NCBI GenBank assembly: GCA_014879945.1
Contig: JACSRE010000408.1
Location: 1-39,244 of the forward strand
Direction of reading: 5' to 3'
Origin: Myxococcus sp.
GTDB taxonomy: Bacteria > Myxococcota > Myxococcia > Myxococcales > Myxococcaceae
Length of the DNA: 39,244 nt
This document shows positions 827 to 6,878 of the stretch, in pieces. The notes below the pieces were generated by a model that did not search any database, had not been told where the DNA came from, and saw only the letters and a program-made list of their open reading frames with translations. Numbering within the stretch: the first letter of the stretch is position 1; every line of letters begins with the position of its first letter. A program made the translations under genes and the position numbers.

Positions 827-913
827 GTGTGTACCCCCATCGGCGTCGGGGACCTGATTGACGCCAGCGCGGAACGGTATCGAAGTGGCCGCGAGGTCGT
901 CTTCAGAAAAGCG

Positions 914-2059
914 TCAGCGTTCAACCAACTCGTCGAGCACGTCCGTGAGCTGCTCCCGCCAGCTACCGCCGCCAACCGCGAGCTTGTCTGCGATGCGGTT
1001 CGGGCACTTCCGGTGGTCTGGCAGACTGAGGGTTGGCGCGAACTGGTACTCCCAGCGCTCGTTCACTGGGTGAAGACAGGCGGCAAGGACCTCGAATTGA
1101 TCGCGGCGATAGTACCGGCTGCATGGGTCGCCCTTCGAGGCGCGGGTCTTCTGAAAGTCGATTCTCGGAACGCCGTCTTTCGGGACTCGACGTAGCACGT
1201 TCTTGCACTCAATTCGGAAGAGCTCAGACCGGTAGCGCAGCTCGAAGTCAGGTTGGCCGTCGGCGTCGATCTGTCGAACGTCCGAGACTTCTCGGACCCG
1301 CTGCAGTTGGTCGAGAAGGTGGCGCTCCGCAACGCTGCCGCGCACCGCGACGAGTAGGCGGAAACTGCCCCCGAGTAGGTCGAGGATCTCTTTGGAACTC
1401 AGGCCGAACGCGAGTTCCAGAGGGTGGCGCTTCGACAGTTGCTCTGACTTCATCTTGTCGAGGAGCAGGAGCCGATGACCAGTGTCGAGACCGGTCGCGG
1501 CCTGCTCGAAGCGAAGGTATCGAAGGAAGTGCTCGGGGGTGAAGCCGAGCACCGCCTCCGTGGTGAGGCTCTGCTTCGGCATGACGTGGCGTCGGCCCAT
1601 CTTTCGTTCGCGCTCCCAGCCGCTCCAACCTGCTTCGACCGTGGAGGCCACGTGTTCGTCCTTGAACTCGATCGACATCGAGAACCAGGTCGGGTTGTGC
1701 ATCATCGGGTCAACCGCGACGAAGATTCCCTCCTCGTGGTGCACGCCGTACATGAGCGTGAGTCGCTTCCGCGAGTCGTCGATGAAGACGTTGTGCAGGC
1801 GATCGAACTGGCTCCCGTACTTCACTTGGAGTCGGTGCTCGTCGCTTGGTCGACCCTTCTGCCGGTACTTGTTCGCGGTAAACGCGTAGCAGACGAGAGC
1901 CAGTTGCTCGCCGTCAGGCGTTTCGATCTCGTATTCGAACGGGGCGGAAGACGGGTCCGCTTCTTCCAGGATCTTGCAGCCGGAGGCTTCCAGCGCGGCC
2001 GTCGTAGCGGCCACGTTGTCGTGCCCGTGAACACCGTCGAATCGCTCCATGCGAGTCAT
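914..2059 (-). CDS. Probable type II restriction endonuclease, PD-(D/E)XK fold
   Basis: This 381-residue protein is encoded back-to-back with a C5-cytosine methyltransferase, the classic layout of a type II restriction-modification pair. The C-terminal third carries a nuclease-like signature: a Pro-Asp at about 270-271, then a strand ending in Glu284-Cys-Lys286 (FRIECKNV). This matches the PD-(D/E)XK metal-binding core. It is followed by a conserved-looking basic and aromatic stretch (QKTRASKGDPCSRYYRRDQF) that I associate with restriction enzymes. The N-terminal 200 or so residues are a separate region of unknown role with strands such as YEIETPDGEQLALVCYAF. The open frame continues upstream into the methyltransferase gene, so I take the ATG at 2059 (alternative 2050), which leaves a 78-bp divergent promoter region. 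GC content is lower than downstream genes, suggesting transfer. The recognition sequence cannot be told from sequence alone. Confidence 0.75.
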   Translation of the reverse strand: MTRMERFDGVHGHDNVAATTAALEASGCKILEEADPSSAPFEYEIETPDGEQLALVCYAFTANKYRQKGRPSDEHRLQVKYGSQFDRLHNVFIDDSRKRLTLMYGVHHEEGIFVAVDPMMHNPTWFSMSIEFKDEHVASTVEAGWSGWERERKMGRRHVMPKQSLTTEAVLGFTPEHFLRYLRFEQAATGLDTGHRLLLLDKMKSEQLSKRHPLELAFGLSSKEILDLLGGSFRLLVAVRGSVAERHLLDQLQRVREVSDVRQIDADGQPDFELRYRSELFRIECKNVLRRVPKDGVPRIDFQKTRASKGDPCSRYYRRDQFEVLAACLHPVNERWEYQFAPTLSLPDHRKCPNRIADKLAVGGGSWREQLTDVLDELVER

Positions 2060-2137
2060 CGTGCGCGACCCTCGCTCGGGGTCAAGGACTGCGACCTCTC
2101 GACAGCACGTCAGCCCCTCGTGGTACGAGCCTTCCGC

Positions 2138-3358
2138 ATGAAGAGCGCGATCAGTCTGTTCTCGGGTGCGGGTGGCATGGACTACGGGTTCGAAGCCGCG
2201 GGCTTCGAGACCAAGGTCGCGGTCGAGTTCGACCACGATTGCTGTGAGACGCTCCGGAAGAACCGTGACTTTGCAGTGATCGAGCGAGACATCATGAAGG
2301 TCCCGACGGCGGAGATGCTCGAGGCAGGTGGGCTCAAGCAGGGTGACGTGAGCTTGCTTTTCGGAGGTCCTCCGTGCCAGCCGTTCTCCAAAGCCGGCTA
2401 CTGGGCGCGTGGCGACTCCAAGCGGCTCGAGGACCCGCGGGCGAATACGTTGTGGGCGTACATGCGCGTCGTCGAAGAGGCGCTCCCTCAGGCGTTCGTT
2501 CTCGAGAACGTCAGCGGCCTCGCCTTCTCAGGGAAGGACGAGGGGCTTCAGCTGCTGCTTGAGCGCATCAAGGAGATCAACAAGAAGACGAAGAGCAACT
2601 ACCAGCCGTCGTTCAAGGTTCTGAACGCCGCCGGCTACGGGGTGCCGCAGATTCGTGAGCGGTTCTTCATCGTCGCTTCGCGCGAAGGGGAGCGGTTCAA
2701 CTTCCCAACGCCGAGCTTCGAAGACCCGAGCAACGATTCGACGCTCGTGGGGCTCGAGCCGTACCGGACGGCCTGGGACGCCATCGGAGACCTCCCGGAG
2801 CCGGCCGACGAGGACCTCGCCATGCGCGGCAAGTGGGCCAAGCTTCTCCCCTCGATTCCCGAGGGCCAGAACTACCTCTGGCACACGGACCGCGGAGGTG
2901 GCCTGCCGCTGTTTGGGTGGCGGCGTCGGTATTGGTCTTTCTTGCTCAAGCTCGCGAAGAACAGACCCTCATGGACGATCCAGGCGCAGCCAGGGCCGGC
3001 GATTGGCCCGTTCCACTGGAAGAGCCGCCGTCTGAGCGCGCGCGAACTCTGCCGGATCCAGACCTTCCCGGATGATGTTGAGATCGTCGGGAGCCGCACG
3101 AGTGTGCAGAAGCAGATCGGAAACGCTGTGCCGAGTTTGCTCGCCGAAGTCGTCGGTCGCGCGCTTGCGGCGCAGGTGTTTTCGGCAAGGCGGTCGTCGG
3201 CACCGAAGCTGCTGCCGCTTCGCCGCCAGCCAGTGCCAGCAGCAGAGCGGGTCGGCACGGTTCGAAGCGAGTTCAGACTGTTGTCTGGCGTGCACGTTGC
3301 CCACCCAGGGACAGGAAGGGGGAACCGTTCCCAACAGGGAGTTCTGGCATCGACATGA
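2138..3358 (+). CDS. C5-cytosine DNA methyltransferase (type II modification enzyme)
   Basis: The enzyme transfers a methyl group from S-adenosylmethionine to carbon 5 of cytosine and protects host DNA from the divergent endonuclease. All main motifs are present in order in the 406 residues: motif I FSGAGG (8-13), motif IV GGPPCQPFS with catalytic Cys80, motif VI ENV (Glu123), motif VIII QIRERFF (171-177), a target-recognition region about 185-300, motif IX RELCRIQTFPD, and motif X QIGNAVPSLLAEVVG (326-340). The open frame extends upstream, but MKSAISLFSG at 2138 is the natural start because motif I begins at residue 8. After motif X there is an unusually long, basic tail of about 66 residues with no recognisable domain. 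The stop lies one base from the convergent small gene at 3360, so the tail may be recombinant. GC is lower than in the surrounding chromosome. Confidence 0.95.
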   Translation: MKSAISLFSGAGGMDYGFEAAGFETKVAVEFDHDCCETLRKNRDFAVIERDIMKVPTAEMLEAGGLKQGDVSLLFGGPPCQPFSKAGYWARGDSKRLEDPRANTLWAYMRVVEEALPQAFVLENVSGLAFSGKDEGLQLLLERIKEINKKTKSNYQPSFKVLNAAGYGVPQIRERFFIVASREGERFNFPTPSFEDPSNDSTLVGLEPYRTAWDAIGDLPEPADEDLAMRGKWAKLLPSIPEGQNYLWHTDRGGGLPLFGWRRRYWSFLLKLAKNRPSWTIQAQPGPAIGPFHWKSRRLSARELCRIQTFPDDVEIVGSRTSVQKQIGNAVPSLLAEVVGRALAAQVFSARRSSAPKLLPLRRQPVPAAERVGTVRSEFRLLSGVHVAHPGTGRGNRSQQGVLAST

Positions 3359-3359
3359 T

Positions 3360-3605
3360 TCAGGCTGACAGCAGGCTCAGCAGGTCCGCAGCGTGGGTGG
3401 TCAGCTGTTCGTAGCTGCCTGCGGGCGCGATGCAGAGCTGCCGAGCACCACATTCCTTCACGTGGGCGCCCCTCGCGCTCACTCGTTGCGCCTTGTTGCC
3501 CAGTACCGAGCGAACGCGAGCTTTGGTCTTCTTTCCCAACCAGTTGACCCACGCACCGACGAAGCCGCCGTCCTGATAGCCCTCGCAGACGATCAGCGAG
3601 TTCAT
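3360..3605 (-). CDS. Small TOPRIM-like protein coupled to an ATPase
   Basis: This 81-residue protein begins MNSLIVCEGYQDGGFVGAW, which resembles the first strand, glutamate and helix of a TOPRIM domain (hydrophobic-E-G-x-x-D). Its start codon shares one base with the stop of the ATPase (TGATG), a strong sign of translational coupling and of a joint function. The rest is basic (KKTKARVRSVLGNKAQRV) and contains two cysteines (CGARQLC). The second TOPRIM motif, DxD, is not visible, and known TOPRIM partners of such ATPases are usually much longer. It is therefore either a minimal family or a truncated remnant. It ends one base from the convergent methyltransferase stop. I am confident the gene is real because of the coupling, but the functional assignment is tentative. 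Confidence 0.6.
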   Translation of the reverse strand: MNSLIVCEGYQDGGFVGAWVNWLGKKTKARVRSVLGNKAQRVSARGAHVKECGARQLCIAPAGSYEQLTTHAADLLSLLSA

Positions 3606-4633
3606 CAGCGCAGCTCCGTGCCGATGACGTTCCTGATGCGGTCTGATTCTGGGCCTTCGAAGCGAGTCGTCTCGAGAGTTCCGTTGGTGATCCTCAGCTT
3701 CTGGACGCTGAGCCTGTCGAGCAGCTCAGACCTCGAAGCGCTCAGCAGGAGTTCGTCGATGAGCTCGAGGCTGTGGGTTGCAACCACGACCTGAAGGCCG
3801 CGTTTCACGGCAGCGACGATCGACGCTGCTGACACCTTGAGTGCGCCCGGATGCTGGTGCACTTCGGGTTCCTCGAGGAGCACGAGGCCAGTTGGCGATG
3901 CGGCCAGCTCGAGCGCGAGGCGGGTGGCCGCTCGAACACCATCGCCGGCCATCGAGAGTGGTACCGCGCCGTCATCGAAGATGAGGCCGACCTCGTAGCC
4001 ACCGCCTACCTTCAGGACCTCGAAGTTTCTGAGTCCGGGTGCCACGTTCAGAAGCAACTCAACCGTGGCGTCGCCAAAGCCTGCAGACTTCGCCTCCGAG
4101 AGAACGTCAGTCATTTCACGTTGGTCGCCGATGAGCCCGCGCATGTCGATGAGCCGTGCTTCGACGGTTGAGCTTCTGGGTACGAGTTCCTCCCCGTAGT
4201 CGCGAGAGCTCCAGTAGGACCCGTCGGGCTCGAAGAAGGTGTGGCTCCTGCCCGTTTGCGCGCCTTGGCTGGCGACAGCCGCGATCGCGCCGACAACGAC
4301 GGCGTTGGGCGTTTCGCTGCGCATCTCCGCTTCACTGGCGTCGAGCCAGCGGAGCGAAACGACTCGTGGGGAGCCGCCAATCGACACCACGATCCGCGCC
4401 TCGGTGAGCCGCTTCCTGAAGAGCCACTCACCGGTGAACTGCCGACTTGCCCGTCGCTTCACCGCCTGGCCGATCGCCATCCCGGGAAACCGTGAGGCGC
4501 CGATGAGCAGGGACTCGAGGACGGTGCTCTTCCCCGAGCCGTTCACGCCGGTGAGGATCGTGAGCGGAGTGAGGTCGCTCACCGTCCCCCCGGCGATACC
4601 GCGAAGATCCTTGATGGAGACCTGAGTAATCAC
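3605..4633 (-). CDS. AAA/ABC-type ATPase of the OLD-like defence class
   Basis: The 342-residue protein is a compact SMC/ABC-like ATPase with no membrane segments. Walker A is GVNGSGKST (29-37), an ABC-signature-like SMAGDG lies at 227-232, Walker B is GLVLLEEPEVHQHP (249-262) with the catalytic glutamate pair, and the switch histidine is in VVVATHSLELID (His287). This layout is typical of AAA_21/AAA_15 proteins that pair with TOPRIM or other nucleases in phage-defence operons such as OLD, Gabija or PARIS. Here the partner would be the overlapping 81-residue gene. The start is GTG at 4633; MITQVSIKDLRGI places the first strand at the usual distance from Walker A. Its codon use and GC match the neighbouring restriction-modification genes, not the peptidase on its other side. 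It is divergent from that peptidase with a 94-bp gap. Confidence 0.88.
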   Translation of the reverse strand: MITQVSIKDLRGIAGGTVSDLTPLTILTGVNGSGKSTVLESLLIGASRFPGMAIGQAVKRRASRQFTGEWLFRKRLTEARIVVSIGGSPRVVSLRWLDASEAEMRSETPNAVVVGAIAAVASQGAQTGRSHTFFEPDGSYWSSRDYGEELVPRSSTVEARLIDMRGLIGDQREMTDVLSEAKSAGFGDATVELLLNVAPGLRNFEVLKVGGGYEVGLIFDDGAVPLSMAGDGVRAATRLALELAASPTGLVLLEEPEVHQHPGALKVSAASIVAAVKRGLQVVVATHSLELIDELLLSASRSELLDRLSVQKLRITNGTLETTRFEGPESDRIRNVIGTELR

Positions 4634-4727
4634 GGCTCGGTTCTTCTCCCGGTCGCTCGGCTTGCCGAGTTCGCGACGCGGTGATTCACGCGCCCCTGAC
4701 CTGCGCTATGCCGCGCCCGTGATCCTC

Positions 4728-6878
4728 ATGACCATTCTCGCCGCGACCTCCGCCGACCCGCAGTTCCTTCGCGAATACGCCGAGACCCGCCGCTACCTGG
4801 CGGGCCGGCCCGAGAAGCCGAAGTTCTCGCCCGACGGCAAGAGCGTCTTCTTCCTCCGCTCGGCGCCGAAGGACGCCCGCCAGCTCCTCTACGAGTTCGA
4901 CGTCGCCACCGGCGAGACGAAGGAGCTCCTCACCCCCGACGCGCTGCTCCAGGGCGCGTCCGAGACGCTCACCGCCGCCGAGAAGGCCCGCCTCGAGCGC
5001 CAGCGCGTCTCGGCCCGCGGCTTCACCAGCTTCCAGCTCTCGCCCGACGGCTCGCGGCTGCTGGTGGTGCTCTCGGGCAAGCTCTACGTCGTCGAGCGCG
5101 CGAACCAGAAGGTCACTCAGCTCAAGACCGGCGACGGGGCCTGCATCGACCCGAAGTTCTCTCCGACTGGCACGCACGTCGGCTACGTGCGCGACAACGA
5201 CGTGCACGTCGTCGAGCTCGCCACCAACAAGGAGGCGCGCGTCACCACCGGCGGCACCGACGTCAAGCCCAACGGCCTCGCCGAGTTCGTCGCGCAGGAG
5301 GAGATGAGCCGCTTCTCGGGCTTCTGGTTCTCGCCCGACGGCAAGCACGTCATCTTCCAGAGGACCGATCACACCGGCCTCGAGCGCTTCGGCATCGCCG
5401 ACCCGATGCACCCCGAGGCCGAGGCCGAGCGCTTCTTCTACCCACGCCCCGGCAAGAAGAACGCCGTCGTCGGCCTCGCCATCGTCGCGCTCAACAAGGG
5501 CAAGCCCGTCACCGTCACCTGGGACGCGGCCGCGTTCCCCTACGTCACCACCGTGAAGTGGCCGAAGGCCGGCGCGCTCTCGGTCGTGGTGCAGAACCGC
5601 GAGCAGACGAAGGCGCAGCTGCTGGCCATCGACCCGAAGACCGGCAAGTCGACGCTGCTGGTGGCCGAAGAAGACGCCGCGTGGCTCAACGTGAACCAGG
5701 ACGTGCCGCACTGGCTCCCCGACGGCTCCGGCTTCTTCTGGGACACCGAGAGGCACGGCGGCCACGAGCTCGAGCTGCGCAAGGCCGACGGCTCCTCGGC
5801 CGTCTCGTGGGTCAACCCCGCCGCCGGCTACAAGGGCGAGCTCGGCCTCGTCGGCTTCGAGCCGAAGTCGCGCACGCTCTACTTCCTCGGCGGCGACGAC
5901 CCGACGCAGACGCTCCTCTTCAAGTCGGTCAACGGCGCCGCGCCCCAGCGCGTGAAGACCCTCACCGAGGGCCGCGCCGTCGAGAACGCCGTGATGAGCG
6001 AAGACGGCTCAACGTTCGTCATCACCGCCACCTCGACGAAGGCCATGCCGAAGCTCACCGTCGTCAAGGACGGCGCGAAGGCCGGCGTCCTCCCCAGCGT
6101 CGCCCTCGAGCCCTCGCTCGCCCTCAACCTCGAGCTCTTCACCCTCGGCGCGCCCCACGCGATGCGCGCCGCCGTCATTCGCCCGAAGGACTTCAAGAAG
6201 GGCACGAAGTACCCGGTGGTGCTCAACGTCTACGGAGGCCCCGGCCACCTCGAGGTGCTCGAGGTGCTGCGCGAGAACCTGGTGCTCCAGTGGCTCGCCA
6301 ACCAGGGCTTCATCGTGGTGAAGCTCGACGGCCGCGGCACGCCACGACGCGGGCGCGACTACGAGCGCGCCATCAAGTTCGACTTCGCCACCACCACCAC
6401 CACCGATCAGATCGACGGCCTCGAGCAGCTCGCCGCGAAGGTGCCCGAGCTCGATCTCTCGCGCGTCGGCGTCTACGGCTGGAGCTTCGGTGGCTACATG
6501 GCCGCGCTGCTCGCGCTGACGAAGGGCGACGTCATCAAGAGCGCCGTCGCGGGCGCGCCGGTCGTCGACTGGCGCGACTACGACACGCACTACACCGAGC
6601 GCTTCCTCGGCCTGCCCGACGCGCAGCCGAAGGCCTACGAGGTCAGCTCGCTCCTCTCGTACGTGAAGGACGCGAAGCGGCCGATCCTCCTCATCCACGG
6701 CACCGCCGACGACAACGTGTACTTCCTGCACTCGCTCAAGCTCTCGGACGCGCTCTTCAAGGCCGGCAAGGCGCACGCGGTGCTGCCGCTGTCGAACTTC
6801 ACGCACATGGTGCCCGACCCGCTCGTCACCGAGCGCCTCTGGGAGCGCATCGCGCAGACCTTCAAGGAGACCCTCTAA
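4728..6878 (+). CDS. Dipeptidyl-peptidase IV-type serine peptidase (family S9)
   Basis: The protein (716 residues) cleaves dipeptides from peptide N-termini. An N-terminal beta-propeller carries several FSPDG repeats (KFSPDGKSVFF, QLSPDGSRLL, WFSPDGKHVIF). It contains the double glutamate QEEMSRFSGFW (Glu191-192) that in DPP-IV binds the substrate amino end. The C-terminal alpha/beta hydrolase domain holds the catalytic serine in GWSFGGYM (Ser586), an aspartate in GTADDNVYF (661/662) and a histidine in NFTHMV (His693). I chose the ATG at 4728, where MTILAATSADPQFL begins; a GTG at 4719 would add three hydrophobic residues, and the longer frame from 4662 adds non-typical sequence. A very short hydrophobic N-terminus makes export possible but not certain. 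It is followed after three bases by the hotdog gene, likely an operon. GC rises sharply here against the defence genes. Confidence 0.92.
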   Translation: MTILAATSADPQFLREYAETRRYLAGRPEKPKFSPDGKSVFFLRSAPKDARQLLYEFDVATGETKELLTPDALLQGASETLTAAEKARLERQRVSARGFTSFQLSPDGSRLLVVLSGKLYVVERANQKVTQLKTGDGACIDPKFSPTGTHVGYVRDNDVHVVELATNKEARVTTGGTDVKPNGLAEFVAQEEMSRFSGFWFSPDGKHVIFQRTDHTGLERFGIADPMHPEAEAERFFYPRPGKKNAVVGLAIVALNKGKPVTVTWDAAAFPYVTTVKWPKAGALSVVVQNREQTKAQLLAIDPKTGKSTLLVAEEDAAWLNVNQDVPHWLPDGSGFFWDTERHGGHELELRKADGSSAVSWVNPAAGYKGELGLVGFEPKSRTLYFLGGDDPTQTLLFKSVNGAAPQRVKTLTEGRAVENAVMSEDGSTFVITATSTKAMPKLTVVKDGAKAGVLPSVALEPSLALNLELFTLGAPHAMRAAVIRPKDFKKGTKYPVVLNVYGGPGHLEVLEVLRENLVLQWLANQGFIVVKLDGRGTPRRGRDYERAIKFDFATTTTTDQIDGLEQLAAKVPELDLSRVGVYGWSFGGYMAALLALTKGDVIKSAVAGAPVVDWRDYDTHYTERFLGLPDAQPKAYEVSSLLSYVKDAKRPILLIHGTADDNVYFLHSLKLSDALFKAGKAHAVLPLSNFTHMVPDPLVTERLWERIAQTFKETL

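Follow-up and report, generated by a model that had tools for sequence, protein, structure and literature searches.

Two overlapping minus-strand genes at positions 3360-4633 of the window (the whole stretch of 39,244 nucleotides of Myxococcus sp. DNA analysed here) are very probably an ATPase-TOPRIM module of the PARIS/OLD-like type, in which the nuclease gene has been clipped to 81 codons where a restriction-modification (R-M) pair lies. Judging from sequence comparison, the 81-residue protein appears to be the front end of a TOPRIM-type nuclease that normally has 200 to 280 residues. Since the catalytic core has been lost beside the R-M pair, we regard the locus as an ordinary two-gene module that has decayed and not as a minimal system; the candidate "minimal TOPRIM" system is struck off, and the case shows module decay instead.

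The ATPase gene and its probably truncated partner

The ATPase gene (3605-4633, minus strand) encodes 342 aa in an intact frame with a GTG start. Its product is an ABC/OLD-like AAA ATPase, of which the top PADLOC match was PDC-M38A (3.5e-21) and which also matched Pfam AAA_15 and AAA_21. The translation contains GVNGSGKST and EEPEVHQHP, which we take to be Walker A and Walker B, together with an ATHS motif. The P-loop, EEPE, and THS residues were retained in an alignment with eight relatives, and the Walker A, Walker B, and H-loop of an ABC/OLD-type ATPase are all present, as the initial annotation of this DNA had proposed. Both frames that it described were confirmed in place and strand, and the stop codon of the ATPase gene does overlap by one base with the ATG start of the 81-codon ORF, both on the minus strand. 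The G+C contents of the three codon positions in the small ORF (0.63, 0.49, and 0.79) resemble those in the ATPase gene (0.67, 0.48, and 0.78).

The small ORF (3360-3605, minus strand), which begins MNSLIVCEGYQD, can be read from its match to a partner profile and from its full-length relatives as what remains of the N-terminus of a TOPRIM partner of the DUF3226/OLD type. A profile search of the 81-residue protein had been recommended, and the general libraries proved weak or empty: neither Pfam nor NCBIfam gave a match, and the two PADLOC matches, both to N-terminal parts of PDC-M38B, had E-values of 0.013 and 0.03. A custom partner profile built without the 81-residue protein matched it at 3e-08 (1.1e-24 when the profile contained it). 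The N-terminus of the partner in G151, another genome of the same genus, matched it at E 3.4e-11 with 38% identity over approximately the first third of 218 aa. The suggested relation to TOPRIM proteins is borne out by these two matches. Between the window and G151, the NG86 estimates were dN 0.561 and dS 1.312 for the TOPRIM part and dN 0.353 and dS 1.46 for the ATPase, with dS near saturation in both.

The partner-family profile aligned to the window copy at positions 2-78 of 236, so that the copy falls short of a full-length overlapping partner of about 200-280 aa. E8 and D12 of the first TOPRIM motif are retained; the copy stops before the DxD strand and has only part of the acidic set of a TOPRIM domain (the motif 1 Glu/Asp plus DxD). 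The motif 1 Glu is itself not universal, being Ala in one relative (L016/L026).

Full-length partners in relatives

Among 195 genomes of the phylum, the ATPase was matched at 1e-15 in 11 and the 81-residue protein at 0.01 in five, the own genome included in both counts; G057 (0.0026) and G082 (0.0065) gave weak matches to the 81-residue protein and none at 1e-15 to the ATPase. When GTDB contigs were scanned with the ATPase alignment, at least 68 loci were returned. Our first survey of partner lengths covered 86 loci and our second covered 40 of those, leaving out L046-L084, which had shown no partner match in the first. No relatives of the ATPase were found on the plasmids searched, and of 56 pattern matches in viral contigs none was confirmed.

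Relatives were defined by an ATPase profile score of at least 170 in one frame, a rule set after the scores had been seen, and duplicates from the same record were merged (L002 with L007, L012 with L020, and L016 with L026). This left 20 distinct ATPases outside the window among the matches listed, including two (L023 and L032) whose own ATPase is broken across frames. The partner ran in a single frame at least as far as position 202 of the 240-position profile in 18 of the 20 relatives among the matches listed, and was split over two frames in the other two (L013 and L032); eight of the 20 partners had been used to build this profile and therefore match by construction. In 15 relatives, the start codon of the partner overlaps the ATPase stop by 4 bases, which fixes lengths of 203-279 aa. 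The partner frame is open in L019, L027, and L045, which were excluded from that range, and one of the 15, the partner of the second copy in L018, runs to the end of the available DNA (241 aa, incomplete). Below the score limit, G112 has a relic, L025 and L028 have a broken ATPase and no partner match, and the more distant ATPases of L029, L030, L031, and L040 are followed by ORFs of 232-262 aa without a profile match at 0.001.

A partner of about 80 residues was found beside none of the 20 distinct ATPases among the matches listed. The question raised at the outset, whether homologues are all of about 80 residues and next to this ATPase, is thus answered in the negative, and the 15 partners with fixed starts exceed the 200 residues that had been named as the sign of a simple truncation. 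The long partners in relatives and the absent DxD strand speak against the proposal of a minimal or reduced system. As a separate observation, L018 (6001-13018), a contig from a bin labelled uncultured Chthonomonas sp., carries two ATPase-partner pairs approximately 5 kb apart.

Predicted fold of the full-length partner

The model of one full-length partner (L024, 246 aa) had a pLDDT of 83.2 and a pTM of 0.84. It resembled PH0156 (2p62) most closely, with Z 19.0 and an rmsd of 3.0 over 225 aligned residues, followed by the OLD TOPRIM domains 6nk8, 6njv, and 6njw (Z 10.1, 9.9, and 9.6; rmsd 4.4-4.7; 168-176 aligned) and, weakly, by GajA (8j4t, Z 7.3). The remaining matches shown, at Z 6.9 or below, include phosphorylases, lumazine synthases, and nucleosidases, and these similarities to the predicted model are taken as common alpha/beta arrangements. 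With Foldseek, 2p62 alone passed E 0.001; mostly unrelated proteins lay below it, along with two type III topoisomerases (E 0.035 and 0.059). In the model, E9 and D13 sit on either side of the point where strand 1 ends, and D94xD96 lies at the end of the strand formed by residues 88-94, past the point where the window copy stops; we assume these to be the acidic positions expected of TOPRIM, its metal site. These matches to known TOPRIM domains concern the full-length relatives. DUF3226 was matched by three of nine partner rows, at best with 4.5e-05.

The junction with the restriction-modification pair

A complete C5-cytosine DNA methyltransferase gene (2138-3358, plus strand) converges with the remnant. 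It matched PF00145 at 5.5e-59, and its TIGR00675 score exceeds the cut-off of that model. In an alignment with 10 of 12 other matches (L098 and L099 were left out), the C-terminal tail was common to nine of the 10 relatives, whose ends lie within 8 residues of that of the window protein; the methyltransferase of L097 is shorter than that of the window. The candidate restriction endonuclease of the pair (914-2059, minus strand; its start is uncertain and the frame is open to 2236) has an MTaX1 domain (5.9e-15), a weak PDDEXK_5 match (0.23), and a PD-(D/E)XK-like motif, PDF...ECK, in its translation, and was found in its own genome alone among nine genomes searched. Of the R-M pair that had been noted beside the module, the methyltransferase therefore stands, and the nuclease is likely.

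One base separates the stop codon of the methyltransferase gene from that of the remnant. At the junction (3344-3375), the similarities to methyltransferases and to TOPRIM partners both end within about 30 bases; because the TOPRIM similarity ends at 3375, the joint must lie within that distance. An insertion scar was sought and rejected, since there were no convincing direct or insertion repeats at the borders and there is no tRNA gene in the window. Without insertion repeats, both an insertion of the R-M pair at this point and a deletion extending up to it stay candidates. Because the aligners placed the final 4-7 residues of the remnant at the C-terminus of the partner, the event may have been either a simple loss of the 3' part or a deletion inside the gene that spared the last few residues.

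When all six frames of the own genome (7.7 Mb) were searched with the profile, only the 81-residue stretch and one weak match were returned (E 0.19, profile positions 5-115, with an internal stop). We therefore rejected both a frameshift that left the rest of the gene in a different frame and a displaced C-terminus, as this search found no convincing remainder. An earlier search with PDLC04618 was uninformative, giving no match in the own genome and none in 14 controls either.

A second decayed copy was found in G112, a genome of the same family (L003/L014 and L115). Its ATPase is reduced to the last 90 codons (70% identity), and its partner has an internal deletion, so that profile positions 204-230 follow 3-24 within a single frame; this lesion differs from that of the window. 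The nuclease part has thus been lost by different routes in two genomes from the same bacterial family, a pattern that would be compatible with a costly nuclease.

The site in other genomes of the genus

The module is flanked by a gene for an S9 (DPP IV-like) peptidase (4662-6878, plus strand), which served as the synteny anchor. Contig C263 of G151 starts inside the same gene, with 92% identity between the two peptidases over residues 17-148 and 84% DNA identity over window positions 4419-5099. Beside the peptidase, G151 has an ATPase with 61-62% identity to that of the window and then the 218-aa partner. After the partner come convergent genes of McrC- and McrB-like type, the second of which we read as McrB from its AAA_5 match. 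The S9 peptidase was also present in five other genomes of the genus, and no ATPase-partner pair occurred in the 3.8-13.4 kb examined beside it; in G154, there was a single weak match at this place, to a different ATPase.

The contents of this site differ among three genomes of the genus: a truncated pair with R-M genes in the window (900-4633), ATPase-TOPRIM and McrBC-like genes in G151 (L108:1-5066), and PDC-M01A/B genes in G154. The last (L109:11143-13349) are a Septu-like pair encoding a PtuA-like ATPase and an HNH protein. The module had been placed in a defence block, and this description holds, as the methyltransferase and the likely nuclease adjoin it and the same site in relatives carries defence genes. 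This location next to the S9 peptidase gene is a possible defence hotspot.

Proposed mechanism and alternative explanations

By analogy with PARIS (AriA-AriB), whose toxic nuclease is released upon a phage trigger, the intact module is likely an ATPase-gated TOPRIM nuclease. The ABC-type ATPase would sense a target and would control a separately encoded TOPRIM nuclease, the product of the overlapping next gene. In the window, the nuclease gene would have been cut when the R-M pair arrived or by a deletion up to that pair, and the remnant is expected to be inactive, with no nuclease activity. A point against this reading is that the ATPase gene has kept an unbroken frame and the 81-codon ORF a normal codon composition, so either the decay took place recently or selection still maintains something.

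The last point touches on a reading that we consider improbable, namely that the system is reduced but working and that the 81-residue piece serves the ATPase as a functional small subunit (a regulator, an adaptor, or a decoy) and not as a nuclease. The intact ATPase, the retained gene coupling, and the open frame with normal codon composition would suit such a subunit; however, no similar partner occurs in the 20 relatives among the matches listed, and the Arg near the first motif, invariant in all nine rows of partner alignment A4, is Gly in the window copy. The protein modelled alone also gave a poor predicted fold (pLDDT 54.1, pTM 0.34, on a shallow alignment of seven rows), and a single base separates the end of its ORF from another complete gene. 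There is likewise only a slim chance that the half-domain has been kept to dock on the ATPase, which would turn the module into a sensor without a nuclease or into a decoy titrating phage inhibitors.

Decay of a once complete module would be illusory if the real gene were of full length and the contig misjoined two places. The genome is a draft of 448 contigs and the join is abrupt, but we hold an assembly or sequencing artefact to be quite unlikely: the missing part has no significant match elsewhere in a genome rated 98.67% complete, and the convergent genes meet with their stop codons one base apart. A chance frame without any relation to TOPRIM, for which the absence of Pfam and NCBIfam matches and a best PADLOC E-value of 0.013 could be cited, has a negligible probability, because the ORF matches the partner of the orthologous G151 ATPase, which occupies the same position after the ATPase, and also matches the profile built without it.

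Comparison with known systems

The initial suggestion that a TOPRIM-type protein is coupled to an ATPase of the OLD/PARIS kind agrees with the AriA and PDC-M38A matches of the ATPase and with the fold of the full-length partner model. Among catalogued systems, the ATPase is most like PDC-M38A, one half of the PADLOC phage-defence candidate PDC-M38A/PDC-M38B. N-terminal parts of the PDC-M38B profiles (240-250 positions) match the 81-residue protein and the G151 partner; however, these partner matches are weak (at best 0.013 and 0.00051, respectively), and the full-length partners L009, L024, and L017 had no PADLOC match at E 0.01. Our literature search returned no paper under the name PDC-M38 and none combining DUF3226 and TOPRIM.

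The predicted fold of the full-length partner is like that of the TOPRIM domains of OLD and GajA and that of PH0156 (DUF3226). Unlike the module, OLD and GajA have their ATPase and TOPRIM parts in one chain, according to PMC10568477. The class 4 OLD systems (PARIS) are described in PMC10568477 and PMC12796447 as having separate adjacent genes for the ATPase and the TOPRIM protein, an arrangement shared by the module. The window ATPase matched the AriA profile at 8.5e-17, although it scored better with PDC-M38A and NsnB, and no AriB model appeared among the six families matched by nine partner rows at E 0.1, where the reach of the profiles is limited. Weak similarity to MADS was also seen, between the window ATPase and MAD3 (8.9e-09) and between the G151 partner and MAD4 (1.9e-04); in this comparison on MAD3 and MAD4 alone, however, the scores of 35 of 420 bits and 21.6 of 160, respectively, are far under the curated cut-offs. 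The intact relatives form a thinly catalogued, two-gene OLD-like group with a putative defence role, and the ATPase-partner pair belongs to a known kind, which the PDC-M38, MAD3/MAD4, and PARIS models cover loosely.
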